Source: Methyloceanibacter superfactus
GTDB taxonomy: Bacteria; Pseudomonadota; Alphaproteobacteria; Rhizobiales; Methyloligellaceae
DNA length: 64,000 bases
Reading direction: 5' to 3'
NCBI RefSeq assembly: GCF_001723305.1
Contig: NZ_LPWF01000027.1
Location: 62,001 to 126,000, forward strand
Shown here: positions 2,494-37,755 of the stretch, piece by piece
Position numbering within the stretch: position 1 is the stretch's first letter
How the letters are laid out: the number at the start of each line of letters is the position of its first letter
Made by a program: the position numbers and the translations under genes
Notes under the pieces: model-generated
The model's input: the letters and a program-made list of their open reading frames with translations, nothing else
What the model was told of the DNA's origin: nothing
Database searches by the model: none

Positions 2494-3930
2494 CTAACCG
2501 CGCGACGTCACCTGCGCCGCCGGGATGACCATCTCGCAGCGCACGCCCTCGGCGGGGAAGCTCAGAGTCACGTCACCCTCGAGCGCCCGGCCGACGACAG
2601 TCTCGATCATCGCCCGGCCGAAACCGGAGCGCTCGGGCGGGGTCACCGCGGGGCCCCCCTCCTCCTGCCACACCAGCTTGAGTTGAGCGGCGTCCTCGCA
2701 GAAATTCCATTCTATGCGGATCTCGCCCTTGGGGTCTGACAGCGATCCGTATTTCTCCGCGTTGGCCGTCAGCTCATGCAGGGCCAAGCCGAGATTTTGC
2801 ACGGCCTCCGGCTTCAGCATGACGTCCTCGCCTTCGATGGCGATGCGCGCGCCGAAGCCGTCCGCGTGGGCCTCGAGCTGCTGCTCCACGAGCATGCGCA
2901 GCGAAGCGCCGTGCCAGTCGTCAGCGATCAGGAGATCGTGGGAGCAGCCGATGGCGTAGAGCCGCGCGCTGAAGCGATCGAGGAAGTCGTCGACCGAGCG
3001 CGTGCGCGAGGCGGTCTGGCGCGCGATGGCGTGGATCACCGCCAGGAGATTCTTCGAGCGGTGGGTCAGCTCGCGCAACAGCAGGCGCAAGTGGTCCTCA
3101 TTGGCTTTGCGCTCGCTGATGTCGACGGCAACCGACGCGGCGCCGACGACACTTCCGTCGGGTCCGCGCAACGGCTCGATGACGACGTAGAAGGATCGCT
3201 CCCGGGCGTAGAGCTCGAAGTCGACCTCGAGCTCTTGCGAAGAGTCCGTCTCCATAGCCTTGCGCTTAGCCGCCATCAGCTTCTCCGCGGCTTCGGCCGG
3301 GACGATGCCGGCGTCGGTCTTGCCCAACACCTGATCGTCAGCGAGACCGGCCGGAAGATTATGCGCCCAGGTGAAATGCAGATCCTTGTCCTGGCTGAAC
3401 ACGGAGATGGGGGAACCGCGCAGGGCAATCTCGAAGCGCTGCTTGGCTTCGGCCAATTCCTTGGTGCGGGCCGCCACCCGCTCCTCGAGCTGCAAGCGCG
3501 TCTCGCTCAGCTCTTCGAGGGTCTTCAGATGCGCGGCGATCTCCGACTGCAGCCGGTCGCGCGACGGCACGCTGCTCAAATACGGGGCGAGCCACCACAG
3601 GCCGAGCCCCGTGGCCAGCGCCAGCAGCGCCGCGGCGCCCTTCAACACGCCTTCCAACGCGCCGTCGAGTTGCTGCGACGGCATCCACTGGCTGAACACC
3701 GCGGCGAAATGGACGAGACCGACGGCGAACACGAACAGCAAAAAGAGCTTCACCAGCGCCGCTTCACCTTGGCTGCTCTCGCCGCGCTGCTTGTAGAGAT
3801 AGAGCAGGACCGCGGGCACGAGCAGGAAGGCCGCGGCGATGACCCCGTCGGCGACGGCGTTGAGCACCACCAGGACCGAGGTCCAATCGTCTTGCCCGGT
3901 ATCAAAAAGTGAGGTCAGCGAGATTCCCAT
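2494..3930 (-). CDS. Membrane-bound PAS sensor histidine kinase, HWE/HisKA_2 type
   Basis: This 478-residue kinase has three to four N-terminal membrane segments (residues 20-125), a coiled coil (LEERVAARTKELAEAKQR, about 148-165), a PAS domain starting at RFEIALRGSPISVF, then the HWE-type H-box LLRELTHRSKNLLAVIHAI with the phospho-accepting His. The ATPase domain has ALHELTANAEKYG as its N-box. HWE/HisKA_2 kinases are the usual upstream kinases (PhyK type) of PhyR in Alphaproteobacteria. The phyR locus lies 1.4 kb away, so control of the general stress response is a reasonable inference, not a proven pairing. Confidence 0.85.
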   Translation of the reverse strand: MGISLTSLFDTGQDDWTSVLVVLNAVADGVIAAAFLLVPAVLLYLYKQRGESSQGEAALVKLFLLFVFAVGLVHFAAVFSQWMPSQQLDGALEGVLKGAAALLALATGLGLWWLAPYLSSVPSRDRLQSEIAAHLKTLEELSETRLQLEERVAARTKELAEAKQRFEIALRGSPISVFSQDKDLHFTWAHNLPAGLADDQVLGKTDAGIVPAEAAEKLMAAKRKAMETDSSQELEVDFELYARERSFYVVIEPLRGPDGSVVGAASVAVDISERKANEDHLRLLLRELTHRSKNLLAVIHAIARQTASRTRSVDDFLDRFSARLYAIGCSHDLLIADDWHGASLRMLVEQQLEAHADGFGARIAIEGEDVMLKPEAVQNLGLALHELTANAEKYGSLSDPKGEIRIEWNFCEDAAQLKLVWQEEGGPAVTPPERSGFGRAMIETVVGRALEGDVTLSFPAEGVRCEMVIPAAQVTSRG

Positions 3931-3998
3931 GGTTGACCGTCAATCCATCACAGCACGCCACTCACTGGCGACATGGTGCGTCTGGCCCGGCCCCAAGC

Positions 3999-4153
3999 TC
4001 AAACGATCGCGGCGATCAGGGTGACGAGGAAGACGACAAGAAAGATAAAGAACAAAATACGCGCGACGCCGGCCGCGGCCGACGCGACGCCGCCAAATCC
4101 GAGACGCCGGCCACCAACGCAACAACGGCGAAAATGATCGCCCAAAACAACAT
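3999..4153 (-). CDS. DUF1328/YtjA small membrane protein, broken by one missing base
   Basis: From the ATG at 4153 the frame reads MLFWAIIFAVVALVAGV. After that, the next frame continues as GFGGVASAAAGVARILFF and ends at the TGA at 3999-4001. Together they match the classic two-segment DUF1328 protein of about 52 residues with its conserved GFGG turn. One base, most likely a C making GTC-CTC-GGA, is missing near 4105. GAGGAG precedes the ATG. These proteins are typical of the alphaproteobacterial general stress regulon. I regard the break as a sequence error. Confidence 0.8.
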
Positions 4154-4233
4154 TTCTGGCTCCTCACTCCGGTAAGTCTCTTAAGTCTACGCCTCAAGCC
4201 GGCGGCTGCGCCCTTCGCCCCCCGCGTACAGCA

Positions 4234-4259
4234 AACGTCCGGTTTCGCGATTTCGTTGC
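4234..4259 (-). promoter_or_regulatory. Possible EcfG promoter for the DUF1328 gene
   Basis: On the minus strand the sequence reads GCAAC, 17 bases, CGTT, about 80 bases upstream of the DUF1328 ATG. It differs from the EcfG consensus GGAAC-N16/17-CGTT at one position. The location and the stress-related neighbour support it, but a single near-match can occur by chance. Confidence 0.35.
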
Positions 4260-4271
4260 ACCTCCGGTCCA

Positions 4272-4619
4272 TCAAAAACCCGCAATGGCGGCGAGAAGGT
4301 CCTGGTCGGTGAACGGCTTGCGAACCAACCGGGCCTGGCGGTGCTCCGGCGGCAAGCTTTCCCGTCCATAGCCGCTGACGAAAGCGAAGGGGATGCGACG
4401 GGCGGCCAGCGCATCGGCGATGCGCCCCGCCGGCTCGCCGGCGAGATGCGCGTCGAGCAGCGCGCCGCGCAAAGGTCCGCGCTCGATCGTGGCGAGGGCC
4501 TCGCTCACGGTGCTCGCCGGGCCCGCCACAGCGACGCCCGCTTGCTCCAGTGCGGCGACGATGTCGAGGGCGATGAGGAACTCGTCCTCGACCACGAGAA
4601 TGGGGTGTGCGGTCATCAC
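4272..4619 (-). CDS. Single-domain response regulator
   Basis: This 115-residue protein is a receiver domain without an output domain. It shows the acidic pair VVEDEF near residue 12, the phospho-accepting Asp in GALLDAHLAG (about residue 57), the Ser/Thr switch in FAFVSGYG and the conserved Lys in LVRKPFTD. It is divergent from csbD and lies one gene away from the HWE kinase. Single-domain regulators at such loci usually act as phosphate sinks or adjust PhyR phosphorylation; that role is an inference from context. Confidence 0.85.
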   Translation of the reverse strand: MMTAHPILVVEDEFLIALDIVAALEQAGVAVAGPASTVSEALATIERGPLRGALLDAHLAGEPAGRIADALAARRIPFAFVSGYGRESLPPEHRQARLVRKPFTDQDLLAAIAGF

Positions 4620-4713
4620 TCCTTCACCTTTCTCTCGGTTATCGCGCGGTCGTCACACGAAACCCATGCACTCTTTATTGCGCCGCGGAGACTGCCGCCG
4701 CGCCGGCCCTTAC

Positions 4714-4739
4714 GGAACTTGCGTGTACGTCCGCGCGTT
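4714..4739 (+). promoter_or_regulatory. EcfG (general stress sigma) promoter of csbD
   Basis: GGAAC at 4714-4718 and CGTT at 4736-4739 are separated by exactly 17 bases. This is a perfect match to the EcfG consensus GGAAC-N16/17-CGTT. It lies 67 bases upstream of the csbD-like start codon and points toward it. The ecfG gene itself is 1.9 kb downstream. Confidence 0.75.
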
Positions 4740-4805
4740 TCATTGCGCATCTAAGTCAGGCCCGTACATCCGCTATGGGGCCGCCAACAAAGGGAGTAAC
4801 ATTCC

Positions 4806-5003
4806 ATGAATTGGGATCGAGTCGAAGGCAATTGGAAGCAACTTACCGGCAAGGCGCAGCAGCAGTGGGGCAAGCTCACCAACGACGACCTGGACCAGGT
4901 CGAAGGCCGCCGCACGGAACTGGTGGGCAAGATCCAGGAGCGCTACGGCGTTGCCAAGGACGAAGCCGAGAAGCAGGTCGATACCTGGCTCCAGAATATG
5001 TAA
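4806..5003 (+). CDS. CsbD family stress protein
   Basis: This 65-residue protein begins MNWDRVEGNWKQLTGKAQQQ and continues with the family pattern WGKLTNDDL and VEGRRTELVGKIQERYG. CsbD-like proteins are small, highly charged, helical, and induced by general stress; their molecular role is not settled. A perfect EcfG promoter stands directly upstream and AAAGGGAG acts as the ribosome-binding site, so this gene is a confident member of the local stress regulon. Confidence 0.93.
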   Translation: MNWDRVEGNWKQLTGKAQQQWGKLTNDDLDQVEGRRTELVGKIQERYGVAKDEAEKQVDTWLQNM

Positions 5004-5140
5004 CGACACGCCGGAATGCCGCGCTGCTGGCGGGCGCCCCATGAGGCCCTGTCCGGCGCGCGGCGCTCCCATATCGATTCCAGCCCCGTGGCGCGGGGCA
5101 AACGCTTTTTCCCTCCCCTCCTGACGCCGAGGTCTCCAAC

Positions 5141-5331
5141 ATGCTGACGACAATTCTCATTATCATCCTCATCCTCGTCCTACTCGGCGCGGTTCCCGCT
5201 TGGCCCTATAGCCGCGGTTGGGGCTACGGTCCGTCCGGTATCGTCGGGCTGATCCTGGTAATCCTGCTGATCCTGCTCCTGCTCGGAAAAATCTACGCCG
5301 TCGTCGGTCTCAGGCGCTCGCCGAGGGCTGA
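5141..5331 (+). CDS. DUF3309 small membrane protein
   Basis: The first 52 residues match DUF3309: a first membrane segment (MLTTILIIILILVLLGAVP), the conserved WPYSRGWGYGPSG loop, and a second segment rich in Leu/Ile ending LLLLLGKI at about 5295. The family normally stops there. In the given sequence the same frame stays open to 5527, running antisense through the 3' end of phyR, which is implausible. A one-base shift would end it at the TGA at 5329-5331. The core is secure but the exact stop is not. It lies between csbD and phyR, where small membrane stress proteins are common. Confidence 0.75.
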
Positions 5332-6118
5332 TCGCGCAAGCTCGCGCGACGCTCGAAGAACAGCGCCTGGGACACGATCGCCTTCACGGTATCGGGCTGA
5401 TACGGTTGGTGATGAGAAAGGCCGGCTCGGGCCGCTCGCCCGTCAACAGCCGGTCGGGATAGGCGGTGATGAAGATCACCGGCACTTGGAACAACGCCAG
5501 CATCTCGTTGACGGCGTCGAGGCCTGAGCTGCCATCGGCAAGCTGAATGTCGGCGAGCACCAGACCGGGCTTGCTGTTCTCCACCGCGCGGACAGCTTCC
5601 TTATGCGTGCGCGCGACACCGGCCACGCGATGGCCGAGCCCCTCCACGATGCTTTCGAGATCCATGGCGATCATCGGCTCATCCTCGATGATGAGCACAT
5701 CGGTGGCGACCTGCGCGGCAATCTCCCGCCCCGCGGCATCGATCAGCGCTTCGGCATTGTCCACCGTGGTGTTGAGAATGATGGCGGTCTCGTCCGGGGT
5801 GAAGCCTTCCACGGAGCTGAGCAGGAAGGCCTGCCGGGGCAACGGCGTGATCTGCTCGAGCTTGCGGTCCACGGGCGTCGTACCGCCCTGGAACGCTTCC
5901 GGTTTCAGGTTGATGCCGACGGAATTCCAAAGTCCCAGGAAGGTCCGGTAGAGCGCGATGCGCGGATCGAGATTGTCGTCAAACAGCGACGAATCCTCGG
6001 CCAGGACCTCTAAGGTGGCCGCCACATAGGCGTCGCCGGCGGCTTGGGTTCCCGCCAGGGCACGGGCAAACCGGCGAAGGTAGGGCAGATGAGGCGCGAT
6101 CGTTTTCGACAACGACAT
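5310..6118 (-). CDS. phyR: PhyR anti-anti-sigma response regulator (one indel near the C-terminus)
   Basis: PhyR controls the general stress response of Alphaproteobacteria. When phosphorylated it binds NepR and frees EcfG. The N-terminal half (residues 1-135) is the sigma-factor-like domain (PYLRRFARALAGTQAAGDAYV, then GFTPDETAIILNTT). The C-terminal half is a receiver with acidic EDEP, the phospho-accepting Asp in LVLADIQLADG and the Thr switch in VIFITAYPD. After AFLIT the frame breaks. One missing G (AAG to AA) restores KPYQPDTVKAIVSQALFFER and a stop at 5310-5312. The break is probably a sequence error. The gene is divergent from nepR-ecfG. Confidence 0.93.
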
Positions 6119-11805: not shown

Positions 11806-12609
11806 TTAGGCGAGGATCAGCATCTCGCCTTTGCCGAGCACGGCCATGTCGCCCATGAGACGGCGGGCGCGGTCGCCGAGCCGGATGCGGATGTCTTGGT
11901 CGCGGAGCCATTTCTCCAGCAGGCGGAGATAATCGAACTCCATGACGCCGCAATCGCTGAAGGTGGGCAGGATGTCCTTGGGCTTCTCCATGAAGATGAG
12001 GCTGCCGCGGCGGTTGCCATAGCCGGCGTAGCGGCCGGCGCCGCGCTGAGCACGAGCGTGCCGGCAATCATGCGGCCGCCGGCATAGTCGCCCGCCTTGC
12101 CGCCGACGACCACGAGGCCCGCGACGCATGCGTTCGCCGAGCAGCGCGCCAGTATCGCCGCCGACGGTGACGAAGCCGCCCTTCATGCCCATGGTCTCGC
12201 CCAAGGCCACGCCGCAGGCTTGCGCGCCCACATTGCGGCGAATGGTGATCTCGCCGCCGGCCATGCTGGCGGCGGCAAGCACGCCGGCGCTTCCGGTCAC
12301 GCCGATCTTGCCGGACTTCATGCGCGCGCCGAGAGAGGCGCCCGCGTCGCCGTCGACGAAAATCGCGCCGCCCTCGAGCTCGGCGCCGATCTTGTCGCAA
12401 CGCTCGTCGGTGCCGACGAAGTGGATGTTCTGCGCGTCCTTGCCCTTCACCTTGAAGGCGTCGCCCACGGTGAGCGTTTCGCGCGTGGTGCCGATCGACA
12501 CCGCCTCGATGTCCTTGCGGCTCATGCCAGCTAGCCGCGCGGGCACCAGCGGCGACAGGTCGAGCCGCTGGCCGGGCGTGTCTTTCAGCTCGAAGATCAG
12601 CGCGCTCAC
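11806..12609 (-). CDS. fhcC: Formyltransferase/hydrolase complex subunit C (two indels)
   Basis: FhcC is a structural subunit of the bacterial formyltransferase/hydrolase complex, which moves the formyl group from H4MPT to methylofuran and releases formate. The protein (about 267 residues) shows the beta-helix GXXGXXXG pattern of glutamate-synthase alpha-C-like domains (GGAIFVDGDAGASLGARMKS, VGGDTGALLGERM). The start is a GTG at 12609 overlapping the fhcD TGA (GTGA). An extra G near 12118 and a lost base near 12045 shift a short stretch out of frame and back. Confidence 0.9.
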   Translation of the reverse strand: MSALIFELKDTPGQRLDLSPLVPARLAGMSRKDIEAVSIGTTRETLTVGDAFKVKGKDAQNIHFVGTDERCDKIGAELEGGAIFVDGDAGASLGARMKSGKIGVTGSAGVLAAASMAGGEITIRRNVGAQACGVALGETMGMKGGFVTVGGDTGALLGERMRRGPRGRRRQGGRLCRRPHDCRHARAQRGAGRYAGYGNRRGSLIFMEKPKDILPTFSDCGVMEFDYLRLLEKWLRDQDIRIRLGDRARRLMGDMAVLGKGEMLILA

Positions 12610-13514
12610 CCGACGATCTCCTTCAGGTGGAAGTGATGGGGGCCAAGATTGCCGCCGTAATTGCCGGCGGTGATATGGGTGACACCTTCCCGCGCACCGC
12701 CCTTGGCGATGGCGTGAATGCCCGCATGCATCGCCTTGTGGATGGCCTCGGCGGTCAGGCCGTCGATGACGATCTCCAGCACCGCTTCCACGTTGAGCGG
12801 CAGCTCCGATTTCACCGCGCCCTTCAGGCTCGGGCAATAGGCGTCGTTGGTCGAGGCGATCTGGCCCTTATATTTCGAGCCGACCTTAGAGCCGGAGCGC
12901 ACGATGCCGCCGGGGAACGGGGTAATGACGTCGGGCAGTTCGGCCATGGCCTTCACCGCGCGGGTGCAGGCAGCGAGCACGGCCGCATGAGTCTTGCCGA
13001 GCACCAGAAGATTGCCGCCGCCGACCGCTTTCTTGGTCAGCCCCGTCTTGTCCTCGCAGACGAACTCACCGTCCATGACGGGAATGCGCCAATAACGCTT
13101 GCCGCCGAGCACTTTCGACATCTGCCAGCCGTCGCCGAAGAACCGGAGCGACGAACCTAGCTTCAGCGATTTCTCGCCTTCGAGCCCGGCAAAGCAGGCC
13201 GAGCCGGGACTGGTCAGCACGCATTGGCCGACGCGGTTCCTGAGCTGCGTCTGGAGCTTGTCGGCATTCATGGTGAACAGCAGCACGGCGACGCCGGGGC
13301 GCCCGTCGGGGGTTTCTTTCCGCGACAGCGTGCGCTCGATGCCGGCCTCGGCTCCGCAGGCGATCACCGAGGTGGCGAAACCGGTCATGGTGCGCGCCGA
13401 GATCAGCGCCCATTCCATGGTGGGCGCCGTGATGATGATCCGCGTGCCGACCATGGGAAAGGCCTCGGCAAACGTTTCGATAATGGTGACGCCTTTGACT
13501 TTTAGCTCTGCCAT
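12606..13514 (-). CDS. fhcD: Formylmethanofuran:H4MPT formyltransferase subunit D
   Basis: FhcD (Ftr) transfers the formyl group between H4MPT and methylofuran. The 302-residue length is typical. Recognisable stretches are IIETFAEAFPMVGTRIIITA at the start, CVLTSPGSACFAGLE in the middle and GAREGVTHITAGNYGGNLGP near the end. I start it at ATG 13514 from family length. In the given sequence the frame is also open upstream into fhcA without a stop, probably because of an inserted base at the end of fhcA. Its TGA overlaps the fhcC GTG. Confidence 0.93.
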   Translation of the reverse strand: MAELKVKGVTIIETFAEAFPMVGTRIIITAPTMEWALISARTMTGFATSVIACGAEAGIERTLSRKETPDGRPGVAVLLFTMNADKLQTQLRNRVGQCVLTSPGSACFAGLEGEKSLKLGSSLRFFGDGWQMSKVLGGKRYWRIPVMDGEFVCEDKTGLTKKAVGGGNLLVLGKTHAAVLAACTRAVKAMAELPDVITPFPGGIVRSGSKVGSKYKGQIASTNDAYCPSLKGAVKSELPLNVEAVLEIVIDGLTAEAIHKAMHAGIHAIAKGGAREGVTHITAGNYGGNLGPHHFHLKEIVG

Positions 13515-15151
13515 GTCATCTCGACGTTGGGATCGCCGCGAAGCGTCGCGGCGGGTGGTGACGGCGTCGGAAACGCCGAACCAGGACGGATCGACGCCAT
13601 AATAGCGGTCGTAGAAGGTTTTTACGCGCTTCTCAATCTGCGCGTCAAAACCAGGCTCGACGTGATAACAGCGGCCATAGGTTACGCGCACGACCTTGCC
13701 TTTGCGCACCACGAGCTCGCCCGACTTGAACACCAAATCGGCGGCGGAGAACATCGCCGTCTTGTTTTTCTGCTCAGCATAGACGGCAATGTCGGCGATG
13801 GCGCCGGGCGCCAAATGACCGCGGTCGGTGAGGCCAAGCAGCTTGGCCGGCGCGGCGCGGGTGATGACGGCGAGCTCGGACAGGGTCAGCTCGCGGGTGA
13901 TCCCGGCGAGATTGGATACCTCCCGCGAGGCCTCGGGTAGATCGTCGAGCCAGCGGGCGCGCTCGTCCTTGTCCATGAGCAGGTGAAAGATTTCCGGATA
14001 GCGCACGAACAGCGCGCCGTTCGGATGGTCGGTCGAGAACAGCACGCGCCAGGGATCTTCGGCCATGAGGAAGATCTCGAGACCGATGGCCCATTGCAGC
14101 GCGTTGACGAAGCTCTTGGGCTTGTAGTTGTAAGGCACCACGCCGGTGCCGTTGCCGTCGCCCTGATTGAGCGCCCATTTCTTCGGGCTCGCGGCGTGGC
14201 GTCCGTCGAACTGGCGCAGAATGTCGCCGGAGATGGTGATGGTCTGGCCGAACATCACCTGGCCGACGTCGACGGAGGCGTTCTTGTGCTTGTTCACCGC
14301 CTCCATGAGACGCGGCGCGCCGGATGAGAAGCCGCGATCGCCGCCGTCGCCATACCCGTAGAACTGGATGTGGGCGAAGTGAATGGGCAGGCTTTGCGTC
14401 GCCTCGAGCGTGGCGACCGCAGTCTCCACGTTGCCGGCGATGCCGAGATTGTTGCAGTGAACATGGGGCGGATGCGGCACGCCGAGACCGGCCACCGCGT
14501 TCTGCATCGCCTCGACGATGGCGCGGGATGACACGCCGTAGTCCGGCACCTCGTCGTCGAGACCGAATTTGCGGTCGTTGAACTTGAGGCCTCCGAGCCG
14601 CCGGCATTGATGACCTTGAGGCCGAGCGCCTTGGAGTGATGCAGGGTCCAGGCGACATAATCCTTCAGCTCGTCGCCGCCGCCGCGTCCGTCGCGCAACA
14701 GCTCGAGCGTGTAGTCGTCATTGCCGAGAATGACGAGCCCGGCCACGTCGATGATCGGGATCGCGGCGAGCGCGATCTGCGCCTCGATGGCGTGGGTCGG
14801 GATCATCGCCGGCTCGATGACTGTGGTGTAGCCCATCTCGGCATAGCGAATGCCGGTGGCATAGGCCCCCCATGAGGCCGGCGACGGCGCGATCGGCTGC
14901 CCGTCTTGGGCGGCGAGCGCCGGCAGCTCGGGCATCAGCTGGCGGCCAAGGGTGACGTTGGAACCGGCGATATGGGAGTGCACGTCGATGGCGCCGGCCA
15001 TGACGATCTTGCCGCGGATATCGTAGACCTCGTCCGGCGTGCGGCCTTCCGGCGCGGCGACGATGCGGCCGTCCTCGATGAAGAGATCGCCGACGCTGTC
15101 GCGGTTGTTGGCCGGATCGATGATGCGGCCGCCTCTCAGCTCGATGAGCAT
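13502..15151 (-). CDS. fhcA: Formyltransferase/hydrolase complex subunit A (indels)
   Basis: FhcA is the amidohydrolase-fold subunit that hydrolyses formylmethanofuran to formate. The N-terminus has the metal-binding DVHSHIAG near residue 55, then HVHCNNLG, and STDHPNGALF later. One T is lost near 14590 (GCC-TTC-AAG read as GCC-TCA), splitting the gene. Near the end a one-base shift (probably an extra T in GCTTCG) would give a TAA at 13502-13504 overlapping fhcD by 13 bases. The start ATG overlaps the fhcB TGA (ATGA). Total restored length is about 549 residues. Confidence 0.92.
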
Positions 15152-30585: not shown

Positions 30586-31155
30586 CTACTCTGGCGCGTG
30601 CTTGTAGTGATCCTCGATCTTCTCGACCAGGATCCGCCAAGCCTCGTGCTCCTTGGGACCGGCCGTCTTCTCCACGGCGATCTGAAGATAAGCGAGCTCC
30701 TGCTCGACCTTCTCGCGCGGCAGCATCTTCAGGCGGCTGGCCAGGATCGCCGCCTCGATCACCGCCGCTTGCGCCCGGTTGAAGCCCTTGAACGGGGCGT
30801 GGGTCGCCTCATGCACGACGCGGCAATGAAAGCGCGGCCGCACCTCGTCCTCCTCGATCTCGTCGACCGTGAGCTCGATATGGGCCAGCGCGCCTTCGAG
30901 CACGGCGCCGGGAATGTGGGTCGCCGGCCGCACCGGCCACTCCTTGGTGCCGGTCAGGCAACCGGCAAAGACGAGCACGTCGTCGGTGAAGCTCGCCACG
31001 GCGAACGGATTGGCCCGCAGATTGTCCAGCGTGGTCGACGGGCGGAACGGCGCGATGACCCAGCCGTCGCCGTCCTCAATGAGGCCGAGCGGCGCGATAT
31101 AGGCGCTGCCGTCGTCGTTGAGCGTGGTGACGATACATTCGCGGATCATCGGCAT
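30586..31155 (-). CDS. DUF447 flavin-reductase-fold protein of the C1 cluster
   Basis: The 189-residue protein belongs to DUF447: IRECIVTTLNDDGSAYIAPL, VIAPFRPSTTLDNLRANPFA, and a C-terminal helical part with FNRAQAAVIEAAILASRLKM. DUF447 proteins have an FMN-binding split-barrel fold and are found next to H4MPT genes in methylotrophs and methanogens. The reaction is unknown; a reductase step in pterin or furan synthesis would fit. It closes the operon mfnB-folB-mfnE-DHPS-like-DUF447. Confidence 0.85.
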   Translation of the reverse strand: MPMIRECIVTTLNDDGSAYIAPLGLIEDGDGWVIAPFRPSTTLDNLRANPFAVASFTDDVLVFAGCLTGTKEWPVRPATHIPGAVLEGALAHIELTVDEIEEDEVRPRFHCRVVHEATHAPFKGFNRAQAAVIEAAILASRLKMLPREKVEQELAYLQIAVEKTAGPKEHEAWRILVEKIEDHYKHAPE

Positions 31156-31174
31156 GATGGCACCTTAGGCTGCG

Positions 31175-32575
31175 TCATGAGGTTTTGCCCTTCTTCTTGG
31201 CGAGCAATGTGTGGCCGGCCTCTTTGAGCCGCGTTCTGTCGTCGCTCGGCGTATCGGCGGCGACACCCCAATCGAGCGGGTCGTCTTGCGCGTAGCGTTT
31301 GGCAAGCCGCCAAGCGATCTCGGCCTTGGCCAGCTCGGCCCCGAGATAAAACGCATGGGGACCGTCCTCGTCGATCCCGAGCTTGGGAAACAGCTCGAAG
31401 ACGTCTTGCGCGACGTGATGGCCGTCCCGGTTATAGATGTGGACGCCGTCCTCGGCGATCTCGATGCGGAAATTCTTGTCCCGCACCGCTGCGGCGTTCT
31501 CGGCGATCTCCTCGGGCGTCTGAGGAAACGGCCGCTTCGCATGCAGGCATAGCAGCTCGTCGGTGTAGCCTTTGGGCAGCTCGCCGTCGGCGCGCGAGGC
31601 GAACATCAGGCGTCTGGCGACGTCATGCTCCTCGTAGGTGCGCCGCGTATGGGGACTGACCTGCACCACGAGCACGTTCTTGATCTTGAGCTCGGATGCG
31701 ATGCCGATCAGCATGGCCGTGGTGCCCGTGGTGTCGGCCTCGGTCAGCTCGGTGAGATTGCCGGTCCCCAGCAGGATCTCCACGTCGGGCCGCTCGCGGC
31801 GTAGCCGCGCATAGCGCTCCAACGACTGCATGAAGCCGAAATTGATCGGATCGAGCACGGGATCGGCGAGGTAAGGCCGCCCCTTGGCATCGAGCGCGTC
31901 CATGGCCCGGTAGAGCGAGGCCATGTCGCCGTGATCCTTGGGAATGAGGACGGGCACCGAGGACACCGCGTCGGCGATGTGGAGCGTGGACTCATTGAGG
32001 CTCAGCAAGTAATCGGCGCCGGCCTTGCCGCCGCGCAACAACTCGTCGGGATCGGCGGAGTCGATGCTGACCTTGTAGCCATGAGTCTTGAGGGCCCGCA
32101 CCGCGTCCTCGAGATGCGGAAACGGCGTGTCGGGCAAGCAACCGAGATCGATCACATCGGCGCCCTTGAAGGAGTAATCCTCCGCCAGCGCGAGAATCTC
32201 CTCGATGGTCATGGCCGTGGCGTCGATGATCTCGCCGAAGATTTGAATGTCGTATTGCGTCATGTCGGACGCTTTGCGCGCACGTCCGAAAAAGGCGGGA
32301 ATATCCTTGATTTCGTCCGGCCCGCGCACGACCGGCACGCCGTAGCGCTCGCTCAGGCGGTCCAGATCGGCCCGGCAGCGGCCCGGCAGCATGATCTTGT
32401 CCGCGTCGCCCCGATCGGGAAGCCGGCGCATGATGATCTCCTCGGTCATCAGCGCCGCCACCTTCACGCCGATGTCGAGCACCTTCCAGTCGAAATCCGC
32501 CTCCATGTCTTGAAGGACGGCCTCGAGGCGGGTTTGCGCCAAATGTCCGGTCAGAAACAGGATGCTCTCGGTCAT
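31175..32575 (-). CDS. Dihydropteroate synthase-like protein of the H4MPT cluster
   Basis: The intact 466-residue protein belongs to the family annotated as dihydropteroate synthase-related in H4MPT-using organisms. After an N-terminal domain (SILFLTGHLAQTRLEAVLQD), a TIM-barrel region shows FKGADVIDLGCLPDTPFPHL and GYKVSIDSADPDELLRG, typical of pterin-binding proteins. It then has LLGTGNLTELTEADTTGTTA. It probably joins the pterin to the ribosylaminobenzene unit, the step that replaces normal dihydropteroate synthase. The start overlaps nothing and follows the mfnE stop by 13 bases. Confidence 0.88.
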   Translation of the reverse strand: MTESILFLTGHLAQTRLEAVLQDMEADFDWKVLDIGVKVAALMTEEIIMRRLPDRGDADKIMLPGRCRADLDRLSERYGVPVVRGPDEIKDIPAFFGRARKASDMTQYDIQIFGEIIDATAMTIEEILALAEDYSFKGADVIDLGCLPDTPFPHLEDAVRALKTHGYKVSIDSADPDELLRGGKAGADYLLSLNESTLHIADAVSSVPVLIPKDHGDMASLYRAMDALDAKGRPYLADPVLDPINFGFMQSLERYARLRRERPDVEILLGTGNLTELTEADTTGTTAMLIGIASELKIKNVLVVQVSPHTRRTYEEHDVARRLMFASRADGELPKGYTDELLCLHAKRPFPQTPEEIAENAAAVRDKNFRIEIAEDGVHIYNRDGHHVAQDVFELFPKLGIDEDGPHAFYLGAELAKAEIAWRLAKRYAQDDPLDWGVAADTPSDDRTRLKEAGHTLLAKKKGKTS

Positions 32576-32588
32576 CGCGGGCTGAGCC

Positions 32589-33248
32589 TACTCGATCAGC
32601 GCCGCGCGGCGTATTGTCGGCGAGGCTCGCGGCAAGCGCCTCTTGATCGCCCTGGCCGAAGATGGCGGCCGCGACGCCGGTATCGGCCAGCATGGCGGGA
32701 AAGGCCTCGTCCACGACGCCGTCACGGGCGAGCTGAGCGGCGCTCAAGGGCGCATGCCGCCGCTCGACGGACTTTATAAGATAGCAGGTCTCGGCGCCCA
32801 GTTGCCCCGCGAGCCACAGAGCCAGGCTGTCGGAGGTCAGCCGCCAGGTGGCTTCCACGTCGGCGCGGCCCGAGACGAGTGTGTATGGCGCCCACACCGC
32901 GACATGGTCCCGGCCGAGGATTCCTCTAAGCGCTTCCGCGTCGTGGCCGACCTCGAAGCCCGGCCGCATGCCCGCCACCGCCCAAGCGAGCTGATCCATG
33001 GCGAGCAGCGCCATGCGGTGCGCGGCAGCATCGCCGAAGCCCAGCTGCTGCTGGCAGTTGCGCACCTCGTCGGCGAGCGCCCCTCCCCCCGGCACGATGA
33101 CGACGGGAACGGGACTTGCGGCGATCGCATCCAGCCAAGCGGACAGGGCTTGCGAGCGGATGACGCTGCCGCCGAGCTTGACGACGGTACGCGGCGCCTC
33201 GCAAGTGAGCGGCGCATGTGCGCCCCTTTGCAGCGCCCGGCCATCCAT
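32589..33248 (-). CDS. mfnE: Amino acid kinase-fold protein, MfnE-like (one indel at the end)
   Basis: MfnE phosphorylates the aminomethyl-furan methanol intermediate of methanofuran. The protein has the amino acid kinase fold: TVVKLGGSVIRSQALSAW, VVIVPGGGALADEVRNCQQQ, and TSDSLALWLAGQLGAETCYL with the LIKSV substrate loop. The C-terminus reads FGQGDQEALAASLADNT and then runs on through the next gene in the given frame. A one-base loss near 32605 hides the stop, probably TAG at 32589-32591. It sits between folB and the DHPS-like gene. Confidence 0.83.
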
Positions 33249-33251
33249 GCC

Positions 33252-33659
33252 TCAGGTCTCCGCCTTGCTCCGCACGATCTCGACACCGACGGCGCCGGGA
33301 TCCTTGTCGAGCTTCTCGATCCTGACCATGACGCGCGCCGCGCGGGGATGAGCGAGACAATGGTCGGCCACTTCCTCGGCCAGGGTCTCGACCAAATTGA
33401 TATGGCCGCGCGCGATGATCGATTTGATGCCCTTGGTGATGTAGTCGTAATCGAAGGCGTTGCCGATATCGTCGTCGAGCGCGCCGGTCGCGGGCATCAC
33501 GTCGACATCGACGGAGAAGCCCACGCGCTGGGTGACGCCCTTCTCGTTGGTGAACACGCCGATCTCCACGTCGAGCACGTAGTCGTGCACGAAGATGCGG
33601 TCGTGGGGCTTGCCCGTGTCGCGCGTGGAAGAGATGCGTCCCAGTCGCTTGTCCGTCAT
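33252..33659 (-). CDS. folB: Dihydroneopterin aldolase family protein
   Basis: FolB splits dihydroneopterin to hydroxymethyl-dihydropterin. The 135-residue protein has DRIFVHDYVLDVEIGVFTNE, GNAFDYDYITKGIKSIIARG and the catalytic-type INLVETLAEEVADHCLAHP. It carries a 20-residue N-terminal extension before the fold. Being in the methylofuran/H4MPT operon and not beside folK or folP, it may serve H4MPT synthesis. It ends three bases before the mfnE start. Confidence 0.88.
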   Translation of the reverse strand: MTDKRLGRISSTRDTGKPHDRIFVHDYVLDVEIGVFTNEKGVTQRVGFSVDVDVMPATGALDDDIGNAFDYDYITKGIKSIIARGHINLVETLAEEVADHCLAHPRAARVMVRIEKLDKDPGAVGVEIVRSKAET

Positions 33660-33696
33660 CGGTCCCGGTCCTGTGGCGGCTTTGTCGGTCGAAGCT

Positions 33697-34425
33697 CTAG
33701 CACAAAGCCGCGGCGCGCGGCTCCCGCATTTCCGTCTCGGACCGGCCCGGCTCCGCCGGAATCAGGCTGCGAATGCGGCGGCAGGCGGCGGAATCGAGGC
33801 CCGCGCTCCGACGTGCCCCATGGCACAGCGCGCCGCGAAAGCCGATGACGTCGGGGGAGAGCGCCAGCAAGGGCGCCACATGCGCGATGCGCAGCGCGCC
33901 GGCCACGCCCACGATCAACCCCTCGCGCTGACCCGCCGTCACGAAGCGGGCGATGTCGGGGATGCTCATATGGTCCAGAAGCGATCCCGTCCGTTTGCCG
34001 GCGGTGTCGAGCATCACGCCACGAGCGCCCATCGCCACCGCGGCGGCGACCGGGTCGAACGCCGGCATGGCGTCGGCAAAGAACACCAGGATGATGCCCG
34101 CGCGGCAGCGTTCGGCCTGCAAGATCTTGAAGCAGGCTTGCGGGTCGCCGCCAGGCAGCACGCCGAGCTTGACGTCATCGACGGCGCACGCCGCCGTGGC
34201 CCTCACCGCGCCGGCGACAAGGCCGGGATCCATGGGAAGATCGCCCACCGTGGCGCTGACCGGCACCCGGCCGGCGACCACGCTCACGCAGGCCTCGATG
34301 GTGACGAGGTCTACGGCACCGAGCGCGCCTTTGCCGGGATCCTTGAGATCGACGATATCGGCGCCGGCATCGAGCACGATTTGCGCCTCGTCGGCATCGC
34401 GCACGCTGGCGAGGAAGCGCGTCAT
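33697..34425 (-). CDS. mfnB: (5-formylfuran-3-yl)methyl phosphate synthase
   Basis: MfnB condenses two molecules of glyceraldehyde-3-phosphate to the furan core of methanofuran. The protein (242 residues from ATG 34425, with AAGGGGG upstream) has the DUF556/MfnB pattern: FLASVRDADEAQIVLDAGAD, IVDLKDPGKGALGAV, PVSATVGDLPMDPGLVAG, and GARGVMLDTAGKRTGSLLDH. The LKDPGKGALGA lysine is the Schiff-base type residue in the family. It is the first gene of the second cofactor operon. Confidence 0.88.
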   Translation of the reverse strand: MTRFLASVRDADEAQIVLDAGADIVDLKDPGKGALGAVDLVTIEACVSVVAGRVPVSATVGDLPMDPGLVAGAVRATAACAVDDVKLGVLPGGDPQACFKILQAERCRAGIILVFFADAMPAFDPVAAAVAMGARGVMLDTAGKRTGSLLDHMSIPDIARFVTAGQREGLIVGVAGALRIAHVAPLLALSPDVIGFRGALCHGARRSAGLDSAACRRIRSLIPAEPGRSETEMREPRAAALC

Positions 34426-34452: not shown

Positions 34453-36144
34453 TCAGCGGAAAAGCCAGTCGAAGGCGCCGCCACCGCCGCCACCGCCGCC
34501 GCCACCACGCGCCCGCCGGCGCTCGTTGCGCGGCTGCCCGCCGAAACCCCACGAATCGGTATCGCGGCCGCGCGCCACCGGCGCCCGGCGCTCCTTGCGG
34601 AGCTTAATCTCGTTGGCATGGCCGTCCGGGTCCGTGACGACCACCGAGACCGCCTGCCAGTTCCATTGGGCCGCCCGCTCGCCCCAGCGCTGCGGCTCGA
34701 TGGACACGACCTTGTTGGCCCGCGTGTCGACGATGGCCACATATTCCAGCTCGTCGCCGCCGCCGAAATCGCCAGCGTAATATTTCAGCAGACCGATGCC
34801 GGACAGCGCGCCGCGCATCAGCTTCCATTCCAAGATCTTTGGCTTGCCGGCGCCGAACATCTCGAGCTCGACCCGCAGCGCTCCGTAATCCGGATTGCTC
34901 GCCATGTAGCGGCCCGGCGACGGCTCGGTCACGACCCAGCCGTCCATCGCCTCGCCGAGAGGCTGGCCCGTAGCCACCGGCACCTCCTGATTGAGGCGGA
35001 GAAGCGCGGCGCGGCTTTCGGCCTGGAACGGATCCTTGGCGAGCGCGCGCTGGTAGTCGTAGATGGCGTCATCGACGCGCTCTTGCGCCTCGTAGACGCC
35101 GCCGCGTATGCGCAAAGCCAGCGGATCGCCCAGGCTGAGCTCCAGCGCCCGGTTCACGTCCATCAGCGCCTCGTCGAGGGAGTCGGACTTGAGCTTCGCC
35201 TCGGCGCGCATGGCGTAAGCTTGGCGTTGTTCGGATCCATCTGGATGCGCGGGTGTAGTCGCCGATGGCATCGTCGTAGCGCTTGTTGTTGGCGAAGAGC
35301 ACGCCCCGCTCCACATAGGCCTCGACCAAATCGGGATTGAGCTCGAGCGCCGTATCGAAATCGGCGATGGCTTCCTTGAATCTGTTCTCCGCCGCATAGG
35401 CCTCCGCGCGCAGCAGGACGAGCTTGGGCTGGGGCACGTTGGGCTCGAGGTCTAGCGCTTGGGTGGCGTCCTCGGCAGCTTCGCTGAAATTATCGATGGC
35501 AAAATTCGCCTCGGCGCGATTGCGATAGGCGGCGGCATATTTCTGATCGAGGCTGATGGCCCGGGTGAGATCGCGCACGGCCGCATGATAGCGGGCCAGC
35601 TCCTCATGGGTCCGCCCGCGTCCGTTGAACGGCACCGGGCTTTGCGGCAGCAGCTCGGCCGCCTTGCGGAAGGACTGAAAGGCCTCTTCATATTGGCCGA
35701 GAGCGGCATAGGCGTTGCCGCGATTGTTGTAGGCGGCGCCGTAGGCGGGCTGGAGCTGAATGGCGCGGTCGAAGTCTTTGACGGCCTCCTCGGGGTGGCC
35801 GAGATCCATCAAGGCATTGCCGCGATTGTTGTAGACCGTGGCGCTCTCGGGCGAGAGTTGGATCGAGGCGTTGAAGTCGTCGATCGCCTCCCTGGTCTGC
35901 TTCATGCGCCATTTGGCGACGCCCCGGTCGCTATAGATGCTCGCCTGCACGAAGGTGGAGACGTCAGGGGTCGCCAGGGCCTCGTCATAAAGGGTGACGG
36001 CCCGGTCGAACTGACCGCGGATCATGGCGGCCGCGCCTTCGCGGGCGCGTAGCAGAATCTGGTCCTCGGCATGCGCCGGGCGGCCGCCCCGAGAACGAGG
36101 CCGGCGGCGAGAATCAGACGGAAATTGGCGCGAAAGAATGCCAT
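34453..36144 (-). CDS. Exported TPR-repeat protein with Gly-rich tail (two indels)
   Basis: The protein (about 560 residues) begins with a signal peptide (MAFFRANFRLILAAGLVLGA). A lost base near 36065 then leads to repeated TPR motifs, for example AVKDFDRAIQLQPAYGAAYN, AIADFDTALELNPDLVEAY and ALMDVNRALELSLGDP, at least eight in all. A second indel lies near 35240. The C-terminal third is a non-TPR domain (VVTEPSPGRYMASNPDYGA) and ends in a run of nine glycines before AFDWLFR. It probably acts as a periplasmic scaffold; the partner is unknown. Confidence 0.82.
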
Positions 36145-36256: not shown

Positions 36257-37755
36257 TCAGCCGTCGAGCGACCAACCATCGAGCGACAGGGATTCGAGGC
36301 CGCGCAGCACCTCGGGCAGCATCTCCGGTAAATCCTCGGCGATCAGGCCGGGCCCGAAGGCCTTGGCGGCCTCGCCATGAAGCCATACGGCGGCGCTCGC
36401 CCCCCAGACCGCGCTCATGCCTTGGGCCAGCATGCCGAGGATCATGCCGCCGAGCACATCGCCGGACCCTGCCGTGGCCAGCCAGGGCGTGCCGTTGGCG
36501 TCGATCACGGCCAGCCCGTCCGGCGCGGCGATCACCGTGTCGGCCCCCTTGAGCACCACGATGGCGCCGGCGCGTGCGGCGGCGGTGCGCGTCTTGTCGA
36601 CCTTGGAGGTCCCCGGCACATCGCCGAACAGCTTGGCGAACTCGCCTCATGCGGCGTGATCACCACGGGCGCCTCGCGGCCGTGGATGGCCTTGAACAGC
36701 GTTTCCCTGTCGTCGGCAAACGAGGTCAAGGCGTCGGCATCGAGCACCACGCTCGGACCGGCCTTGAGCGCGGTCAGCACCGTGGCCTTGGTCTCTTCGC
36801 CGAGCCGTGGCCGGGCCCGATGAGAAAGGCGTTCTTGCGCGGATCGGACAGCAGCGCGGCGATCCCTTGTGGACCATCGGCTTCGCGCACCATGATCGCC
36901 GTGAGCTGGGAGGCATTCACGGCGAGCGCATTCCGCGGCGAGGCGACGGTGACAAGCCCGGCACCGGCTCTCAACGCCCCGCGTGCCGCCATGCGCGCGG
37001 CGCCGGTCGCGTCCATCGGCCCCGAGGCCACCAGCGCATGACCGCGCAGATATTTATGTCCCTCCTCCGTCGGCCAGGGGAACTCCGGAAGCCACAACCC
37101 CGGCTCGTTGGCAAAGGTGTTCGGCTTGACCGTGGCGAGCACGCTGTCGGGAATGCCGATATCGACGAGGCCGACCGCGCCGCAGTGGAGCCGTCCCGGT
37201 AGCAGAAGATGTCCCGGCTTCAGGCGGAAGAAGGTCACCGTGGCATCGGCGTGGATGGCGGTGCCGCGCACCGCTCCCGTGGTGCCATCGACGCCGCTCG
37301 GCACGTCGACCGCCACGATGGGGGCGCCGCAGGCATTGGCGGCGTCGATCAGATCGGCGAGCTTGCCCTCGATGGGTCGGGCGAGGCCTGCGCCGAACAG
37401 CGCATCGACGATGACGTCGGCGCTCGCCAGCAATTCCGAGCTCAGGGGCTCGGGCGTCTTTCCGCAGCGCGCGGCCATGGTGGCGGCATCCGCGGGCAGC
37501 TTCGCCGGATCGCCATCGAAGCCGAGCCGCACCGCATAGCCGTGCTCCGTCAGGTAGCGCGCGGCAACGAACCCATCGCCGCCATTGTTGCCGGGACCGC
37601 AGAGCACCACGACGGTCGCCGCGATCGGAACCGCGCGAAGACTTCATCGGCGACGCCGCGCCCTGCATTTTCCATGAGCACGCGCCGGGCACTCCACCCT
37701 CGATGGTGAGGCTGTCGGCGCGTCCCATTTCCTCCGCGGTCAAGAGCTCAAGCAT
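36257..37755 (-). CDS. nnr: Bifunctional NAD(P)H-hydrate epimerase/dehydratase (four or more indels)
   Basis: Nnr repairs hydrated NAD(P)H. The N-terminal YjeF epimerase domain shows LLTAEEMGRADSLTIEGGVP and VVLCGPGNNGGDGFVAARYL. The C-terminal ADP-dependent dehydratase domain shows KYLRGHALVASGPMDATGAA, FLIGPGHG, VVLDADALTSFADDRETLF and the signature ATAGSGDVLGGMILG. The pieces lie in different frames with breaks near 37660, 37620, 36810 and 36645. Bifunctional fusion of the two domains is normal for bacteria. The gene is divergent from glnB. Confidence 0.9.

Follow-up and report, generated by a model that had tools for sequence, protein, structure and literature searches.

The 64,000-nucleotide window analysed here (Methyloceanibacter superfactus, NCBI RefSeq assembly GCF_001723305.1, contig NZ_LPWF01000027.1, positions 62,001 to 126,000) carries on its minus strand a compact group of genes for the synthesis of methylofuran and of pterin cofactors. 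This group is probably a form of the orf22-orf21-orf20-orf19 operon of methylotrophs that use tetrahydromethanopterin (H4MPT), in which a captured folB, apparently the only one of the genome, would place the supply of a shared pterin under methylofuran control. The genes mfnB, folB, mfnE, a dihydropteroate synthase- (DHPS-) like gene, and DUF447 follow one another in this order from 34425 down to 30586, with gaps of 37 nt between mfnB and folB, 3 nt between folB and mfnE, and 19 nt between the DHPS-like gene and DUF447. A preliminary description of the locus had named these five genes as closely spaced on one strand, and the coordinates and the Pfam and NCBIfam matches agree with it. The five genes are the following:

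33697..34425, minus strand: mfnB (orf22), (5-formylfuran-3-yl)methyl phosphate (4-HFC-P) synthase; PF04476, 204.8 bits (cut-off 22.4)
33252..33659, minus strand: folB, dihydroneopterin aldolase from a divergent lineage carried in the operon; PF02152, 74.9 bits (cut-off 31.8)
32588..33248, minus strand: mfnE (orf21), aminomethylfuran phosphate kinase; PF00696 (AA_kinase), 45.5 bits (cut-off 24.9); NF040622 below its cut-off (55.5 against 300 bits), the frame being broken near the C-terminus and its end put at about 32590
31175..32575, minus strand: DHPS-like gene (orf20 by position); DUF6513 (PF20123), 106.6 bits; TIGR00284, 192.6 bits (cut-off 256.65, missed); PF14251
30586..31155, minus strand: DUF447 gene (orf19 by position); DUF447_N (PF04289), 90.6 bits (cut-off 24); DUF447_C (PF20766), 69.1 bits (cut-off 24.8)

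Among solved structures, MfnB has the homologue MJ1099 (4rc1/4u9p; E 1.5e-21). mfnB, mfnE, the DHPS-like gene, and DUF447 form one strand-consistent group, which places the locus among the methylotroph orf19-orf22 islands. The layout suggests that the five genes are transcribed together; a scan for sigma-70 promoters and terminators gave no more signals than shuffled sequences did.

Copy number, lineage, and distribution of the operon folB

A family search of the whole genome (G000) returned the window folB as the only FolB match and no second folB elsewhere. FolB was also searched for in 42 genome handles, corresponding to 40 different genomes since G029 and G030 repeat G020 and G019. FolB was found in 40 of the 42, as one copy in 39 and as two copies in G021, and no match was obtained in G015 and G017, which belong to the genus of the window. 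In the genomes of Methyloceanibacter, Methyloligella, Methylocapsa, and Hyphomicrobium with a FolB match, the position of this copy identifies it as the operon gene (that of G013 was placed in the operon by comparison with locus L041). A true folP lies elsewhere in the genome (G000:C28), and so does a frame-broken folK (G000:C36).

Since the operon gene is the sole FolB found in the genome, it is most likely needed for folate too. Judged from sequence, the encoded protein would most likely be a shared branch-point enzyme serving folate and H4MPT alike, and not one dedicated to H4MPT. The preliminary description had proposed looking for another folB and folP elsewhere and had named a sole folB needed for folate as an observation that would refute it. 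A folP is present elsewhere and a second folB was not found, so that an assignment of folB to H4MPT alone is not supported.

The membership of the protein in the FolB family is indicated by different models. The folB equivalog TIGR00525 is missed by a small difference (68.5 against 72.15 bits), and the domain model TIGR00526 is passed (57.3 against 45.05 bits). The closest solved homologue by sequence is 3v9o, a dihydroneopterin aldolase of Burkholderia. The Tyr and Lys columns, which we take to be the catalytic residues of the active site, are both kept among the FolB rows listed, with a changed KPxAP context of the Lys.

In a FolB tree of 97 rows, retained after removal of duplicates by hand, the 42 operon FolBs make up one side of a single branch (support 85/91). 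They need only one change, and the grouping is recovered in 80% of the bootstrap trees. The operon FolBs are far from those of folP-folB-folK operons; their nearest relatives are stand-alone FolBs of the window's family together with two betaproteobacterial ones, although few columns and a long-branch warning make the exact nearest neighbour unsure. They also score lower than most other FolBs, with 72-84 bits (59-76 for seven joint-frame proteins, described below) against 92-125; the non-operon FolBs of G003 and one copy of G021 are low-scoring as well. From these sequences, it appears that folB was probably captured once by the orf22-orf19 operon in Hyphomicrobiales.

DUF447 is present in 53 of 249 genomes of the order, and the gene order was read from 7-11 kb in each of them (5 kb in G080, where the contig ends). 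In 23 of these 53 genomes, folB is flanked by mfnB and mfnE, and the DHPS-like gene and DUF447 mostly follow, in some cases after afpA. Because it is kept in so many DUF447-bearing genomes, the mfnB-folB-mfnE order is far from chance. Genomes arranged in this way come from five families (f1, f2, f5, f23, and f40). A single FolB match is found in 21 of the 23 genomes and two matches in G042 and G230; outside f1, the single match was assigned to the operon by count and not by position. A further six of the 53 carry folP-folB-folK upstream of the cluster, five of them before mfnB-mfnE and one (G121) where the stretch read contains neither mfnB nor mfnE. Apart from 23 genomes without folB at the cluster (see below), the remaining genome with a DUF447 match, G208, has no recognisable cluster and only a weak match.

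Some loci show other arrangements. In Chthonobacter and in genomes of f10 (L029, L180, L182, L183, L186, and L187), the folate operon folP-folB-folK immediately precedes mfnB-mfnE-(afpA)-DHPS-like-DUF447. In L125 (G083, which is not among the DUF447 matches), an MfnB-like gene (34% identity) comes after folP-folB-folK, possibly as a remnant or as a gene of other function. G080 has two MfnB matches (C45 and C109), one away from the operon and one at a contig end.

Open frames shared by MfnB and FolB

A single open frame holds both MfnB and FolB in 11 of 40 loci, whereas all other neighbouring pairs, taken as control, share one in 1 of 288 cases; this count excludes the window, the short loci L001-L018, and loci that duplicate others of the same genome. 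Eight of the shared frames belong to a sub-clade consisting of Methylocapsa acidiphila and genomes of f40, f23, and f5, where the frame is shared in all eight loci and in 1/31 of the other pairs. This sub-clade (89/95 support) counts as one evolutionary event. In the remaining loci, the shared frame occurs in 3/32, all of them Methyloceanibacter-like, against 0/257 for the other pairs.

Both Pfam domains are above cut-off in the seven joint proteins of the sub-clade that were scanned, L159 being left out because of the contig end. The AlphaFold model of the L028 joint protein shows two confident domains connected by a low-confidence linker (mean pLDDT 87.9, pTM 0.63); its MfnB part resembles MJ1099 and its FolB part resembles dihydroneopterin aldolases. 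The joint frames may be translated as one polypeptide. In some of them, an ATG, GTG, or TTG in the linker would permit a second, internal FolB start.

Because MfnB and FolB share frames in relatives, the link between furan and pterin synthesis is stronger than co-location alone would make it. The idea of a joint methylofuran and H4MPT unit, advanced in the preliminary description, thus gains from a tight and conserved unit with shared frames, but folate must be included in it. A more far-reaching proposal, which we regard as possible but rather doubtful, is that MfnB-FolB acts as a bifunctional enzyme, or as a complex where the proteins are separate, and fixes the ratio of the first committed step towards the furan to the branch point of the shared pterin. 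One operon would then meter methylofuran, H4MPT, and folate, and folate synthesis would be subordinate to methylotrophy.

A 609-aa open frame with MfnB, FolB, and AA_kinase (MfnE) domains was observed in L164 (G230; 3754-5580, minus strand). It contains the sole other open pair of the control and may be due to chance; G230 has a second, higher-scoring FolB.

The DHPS-like protein, DUF447, and the surrounding island

Because the true folP lies elsewhere in the genome, the DHPS-like gene of the operon is, on its sequence, not the folate DHPS. Its product consists of an N-terminal DUF6513 region, a pterin-binding-type TIM barrel at residues ~106-332, and a C-terminal region with a DUF4346 match below cut-off. 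PF00809 gives no match for this protein. Two other proteins of the genome match PF00809, namely, the FolP at C28 and one encoded by a long frame at C25, and in relatives the DHPS-like proteins match it weakly (25.7 against 25.5 bits in G034, and in G033 only together with neighbours). The predicted model (mean pLDDT 80.5) has DHPS as its top match by both Foldseek (E 1.6e-9) and VIA, with a best Z of 20.6 over residues 106-332. Profile comparison with FolPs of the order gives a probability of 96%, and the S-(I/V)-D-(T/S) strand is kept. The alignment used 16 of 33 FolP matches, in which loop 1 (NVTPDSFSDG) and the SRK motif are invariant. It starts after loop 1, for which the DHPS-like consensus has no counterpart, and it ends with the S-R of the SRK motif opposite G-N, the Lys lying beyond it.

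The predicted structure suggests that the protein probably binds a pterin. The preliminary description had seen in it a pterin-joining enzyme; the DHPS fold agrees with this, but the motifs invariant in FolP are missing, so that the role is a guess. A tentative alternative, with a real but minor chance of being correct, is that the barrel performs another chemistry, such as methyl transfer, and not the joining of a pterin with an arylamine. Indeed, the divergence at loop 1 and at the SRK motif would be in line with it, and the methyltetrahydrofolate methyltransferase 2e7f scores nearly as high as DHPS (Z 19.4 against 20.6). However, the best matches by both structural searches are DHPS, the S-(I/V)-D-(T/S) motif is conserved, and in the majority of the loci read the gene lies beside genes for H4MPT.

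Among named genomes, those of Methyloceanibacter, Methyloligella, and related metagenome-assembled genomes of Hyphomicrobiaceae encode the closest relatives of the DHPS-like protein (72-87% identity). The cluster of some Hyphomicrobium-like genomes lacks the DHPS-like gene. Loci L050-L052 and L054-L059, mostly of Hyphomicrobium, have DHPS-like genes (51-53% identical) without other operon genes in the stretch, and in G039 and G041, mfnB-folB-mfnE-DUF447 stands apart from the DHPS-like gene.

DUF447 has solved but uncharacterised homologues (3b5m, 2iml, 2ptf, and 2nr4) and a PNPOx_N match below cut-off. Its sequence points to a relative of FMN split-barrel proteins, and the flavin-type fold assigned to it in the preliminary description is to this extent retained as a kinship seen through a weak match. 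Its presence in the Haloferax and Sulfolobus controls suggests that its role is not confined to this operon. In PMC6193120, DmrA and AfpA/DmrB are described as bacterial dihydromethanopterin reductases that are not related to each other. It would be conceivable that DUF447 is a further, flavin-dependent dihydromethanopterin reductase of the pathway, as its kinship to a flavin-binding fold and its usual place beside the DHPS-like gene might indicate. This is very improbable, because 52 of the 53 DUF447 genomes already have a candidate for a known reductase: a DmrA-type one in 34, an AfpA-type one at the cluster in 22, and both in 4. The lone exception, G208, is the genome with the weak DUF447 match, and the DmrA-type gene of G020 has an internal stop. 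The DmrA label does not derive from an annotated DmrA sequence; it was given on kinship with dihydrofolate reductase (27.4 bits), on size, and on PMC6193120. The search for AfpA covered 27 genomes as a whole and, in the others, the cluster only; the two candidates scanned match PF02441, with the AfpA and dihydromethanopterin reductase models below cut-off. In G000, the genome-wide search found no AfpA, and a DmrA-type candidate gene lies outside the operon. DUF447 as the missing dihydromethanopterin reductase is consequently disfavoured.

As assembled, the mfnE frame lacks its usual stop and extends to 31992 through the DHPS-like gene, while in most relatives mfnE stops after about 200-230 aa. 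Because folK of the same genome is also frame-broken, this run-on is probably a one-base assembly error. Frame breaks in the operon are present in some relatives too (L021, L027, L049, and L076), which weakens this explanation. Other genes of the window are split or run on in a similar manner, and together with the broken folK they are probably indel errors in the assembly. The genes affected are the following:

31992-33248: mfnE
34453-36025: tetratricopeptide repeat (TPR) gene, minus strand (34453..36025), 27 nt upstream of mfnB; TPR matches, two frames in the assembly
36257-37610: YjeF/Carb_kinase
12606-15151: amidohydrolase/formyltransferase (FTR)

Of the loci read, only those of Methyloceanibacter and Methyloligella have the TPR gene beside the operon, and it is possibly the first gene of the operon transcript. 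Farther away, at ~12.6-25.9 kb of the window, there are formyltransferase/hydrolase parts, methylene-H4MPT dehydrogenase, mch, two ATP-grasp proteins, and CitG-like, HisA/F-like, and hydantoinase-like genes, some of which presumably correspond to fhc, mtdB, orf7, and orf9. Because these cofactor and one-carbon genes share the window with the mfnB-DUF447 genes, what had been called a second cofactor operon belongs to a larger methylotrophy island. The descriptions of orfY, orf5, and orf17 in PMC8141765 agree with the two ATP-grasp genes and the HisA/F-like one.

Metabolic role and relation to known systems

In the pathway proposed here, MfnB would form the furan ring and MfnE would activate the furan for methylofuran. 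FolB would cleave dihydroneopterin to 6-hydroxymethyl-dihydropterin, which is the branch point. One branch would lead to folate via FolK and FolP, encoded elsewhere, and the other to H4MPT, probably via the DHPS-like protein and DUF447. Because mfnB and mfnE flank the sole folB found in the genome, the shared pterin supply would come under methylofuran control, and the cofactors of formaldehyde oxidation would then rise together. Where MfnB and FolB share a frame, a single polypeptide would fix a 1:1 ratio.

Several observations weigh against this proposal. Gene order alone is no demonstration of co-transcription, and the window itself has mfnB and folB as two genes, divided by a stop and the 37-nt gap. 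The three joint frames of Methyloceanibacter (L021, L027, and L076) sit in loci with other frame breaks, in mfnE in L021 and L027 and in DUF447 in L076. The assembly of G000 is 93% complete, so that a second folB could be missing, but five genomes of the genus with a rated completeness of 99-100% likewise have a single FolB, the operon one. MfnB is present in 17 of 386 genomes of the class, and within flanks of about 1.5 kb FolB lies beside it only in G000 and G080, of the same order; no folB adjoining mfnB was seen outside the order in these small flanks. Finally, 23 of the 53 DUF447-bearing genomes (Methylobacterium, relatives of Ancylobacter, and others) have no folB within roughly 10 kb at the cluster, and for this reason the coupling of folB with the mfn genes is optional. 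In 11 of these 23, a FolB match lies 15-31 kb off on the same contig (f32, f33, f26, and f40), and folB may be drawn to the region of the cluster more widely.

The frequent lack of folB at the cluster can also be taken to mean that the order is an inherited neighbourhood only, in which folB landed once and its position has no regulatory or functional meaning. One FolB lineage accounts for the 42 operon rows, and many genomes thus amount to few events. This explanation is nevertheless unlikely. The order is kept across the five families, and a different FolB lineage, together with folP and folK, separately reached the upstream side of the cluster. Moreover, frame sharing between MfnB and FolB arose in one sub-clade and again in Methyloceanibacter, while other pairs almost never show it. 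It is still less probable, though not negligible, that the operon FolB was recruited to the furan or the H4MPT branch and that a non-homologous enzyme performs the dihydroneopterin step of folate. The 6-pyruvoyltetrahydropterin synthase (PTPS) family replaces FolB in some bacteria, G000 has one PTPS-family protein, and the operon FolBs form a divergent, lower-scoring lineage. But the PTPS gene adjoins queE (TIGR04508, 344 bits, cut-off 240), and among NCBIfam models it matches QueD best (81.2 bits, cut-off 89.25), both of which would be expected of a gene for queuosine synthesis. In addition, the protein has Asn at the position where we take PTPS-III to have Glu. On these three grounds, PTPS is an unlikely substitute for FolB; no second FolB was found in the genome either (MptD, PF04038, was not searched for). 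A shared FolB under methylofuran control is thus the reading preferred here.

If this is true, methylofuran, H4MPT, and folate would be jointly controlled from one operon. Methylotrophs have to balance three carbon-carrying cofactors, two of them with a common pterin precursor, and an operon with folB would give a direct handle on this balance. The locus also cautions against an H4MPT-specific label for the operon FolB, and equally against treating it as a common housekeeping enzyme of folate synthesis; it gives reason to re-examine the DHPS-like protein and DUF447.

In the available text of PMC3615186, the island of Methylosinus trichosporium OB3b is given as orf19-orf20-afpA-orf21-orf22, and in that of PMC8141765, Orf22 and Orf21 of the "archaeal-like" cluster of Methylorubrum extorquens correspond to mfnB and mfnE. 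The window shares mfnB and mfnE with these clusters and has the DHPS-like gene and DUF447 at the positions of orf20 and orf19, the correspondence being one of position only. It differs in lacking afpA, with a DmrA-type gene elsewhere in the genome, and in having folB between mfnB and mfnE, which the available parts of PMC3615186 and PMC8141765 do not mention. With the folP-folB-folK folate operon, it has in common the FolB family and presumably the reaction; the window folB, however, is away from folP and folK and of a different lineage, and its product has EKLDK...PGAVGVEI where the folP-folB-folK type shows the KPxAP context. Compared with MJ1099, the MfnB of Methanocaldococcus jannaschii, the window MfnB is the same 4-HFC-P synthase in sequence and fold, but MJ1099 has no FolB domain, whereas the related loci with a shared frame have both. 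Among open-licence papers, none was found that pairs MfnB (4-HFC-P synthase) with FolB (dihydroneopterin aldolase). The orf19-orf22 set without folB is already known (PMC8141765, PMC3615186); new, within the open-licence literature, are the operon's capture of what is apparently the sole folB, the one lineage to which the operon FolBs belong, and the open frames that MfnB and FolB share.

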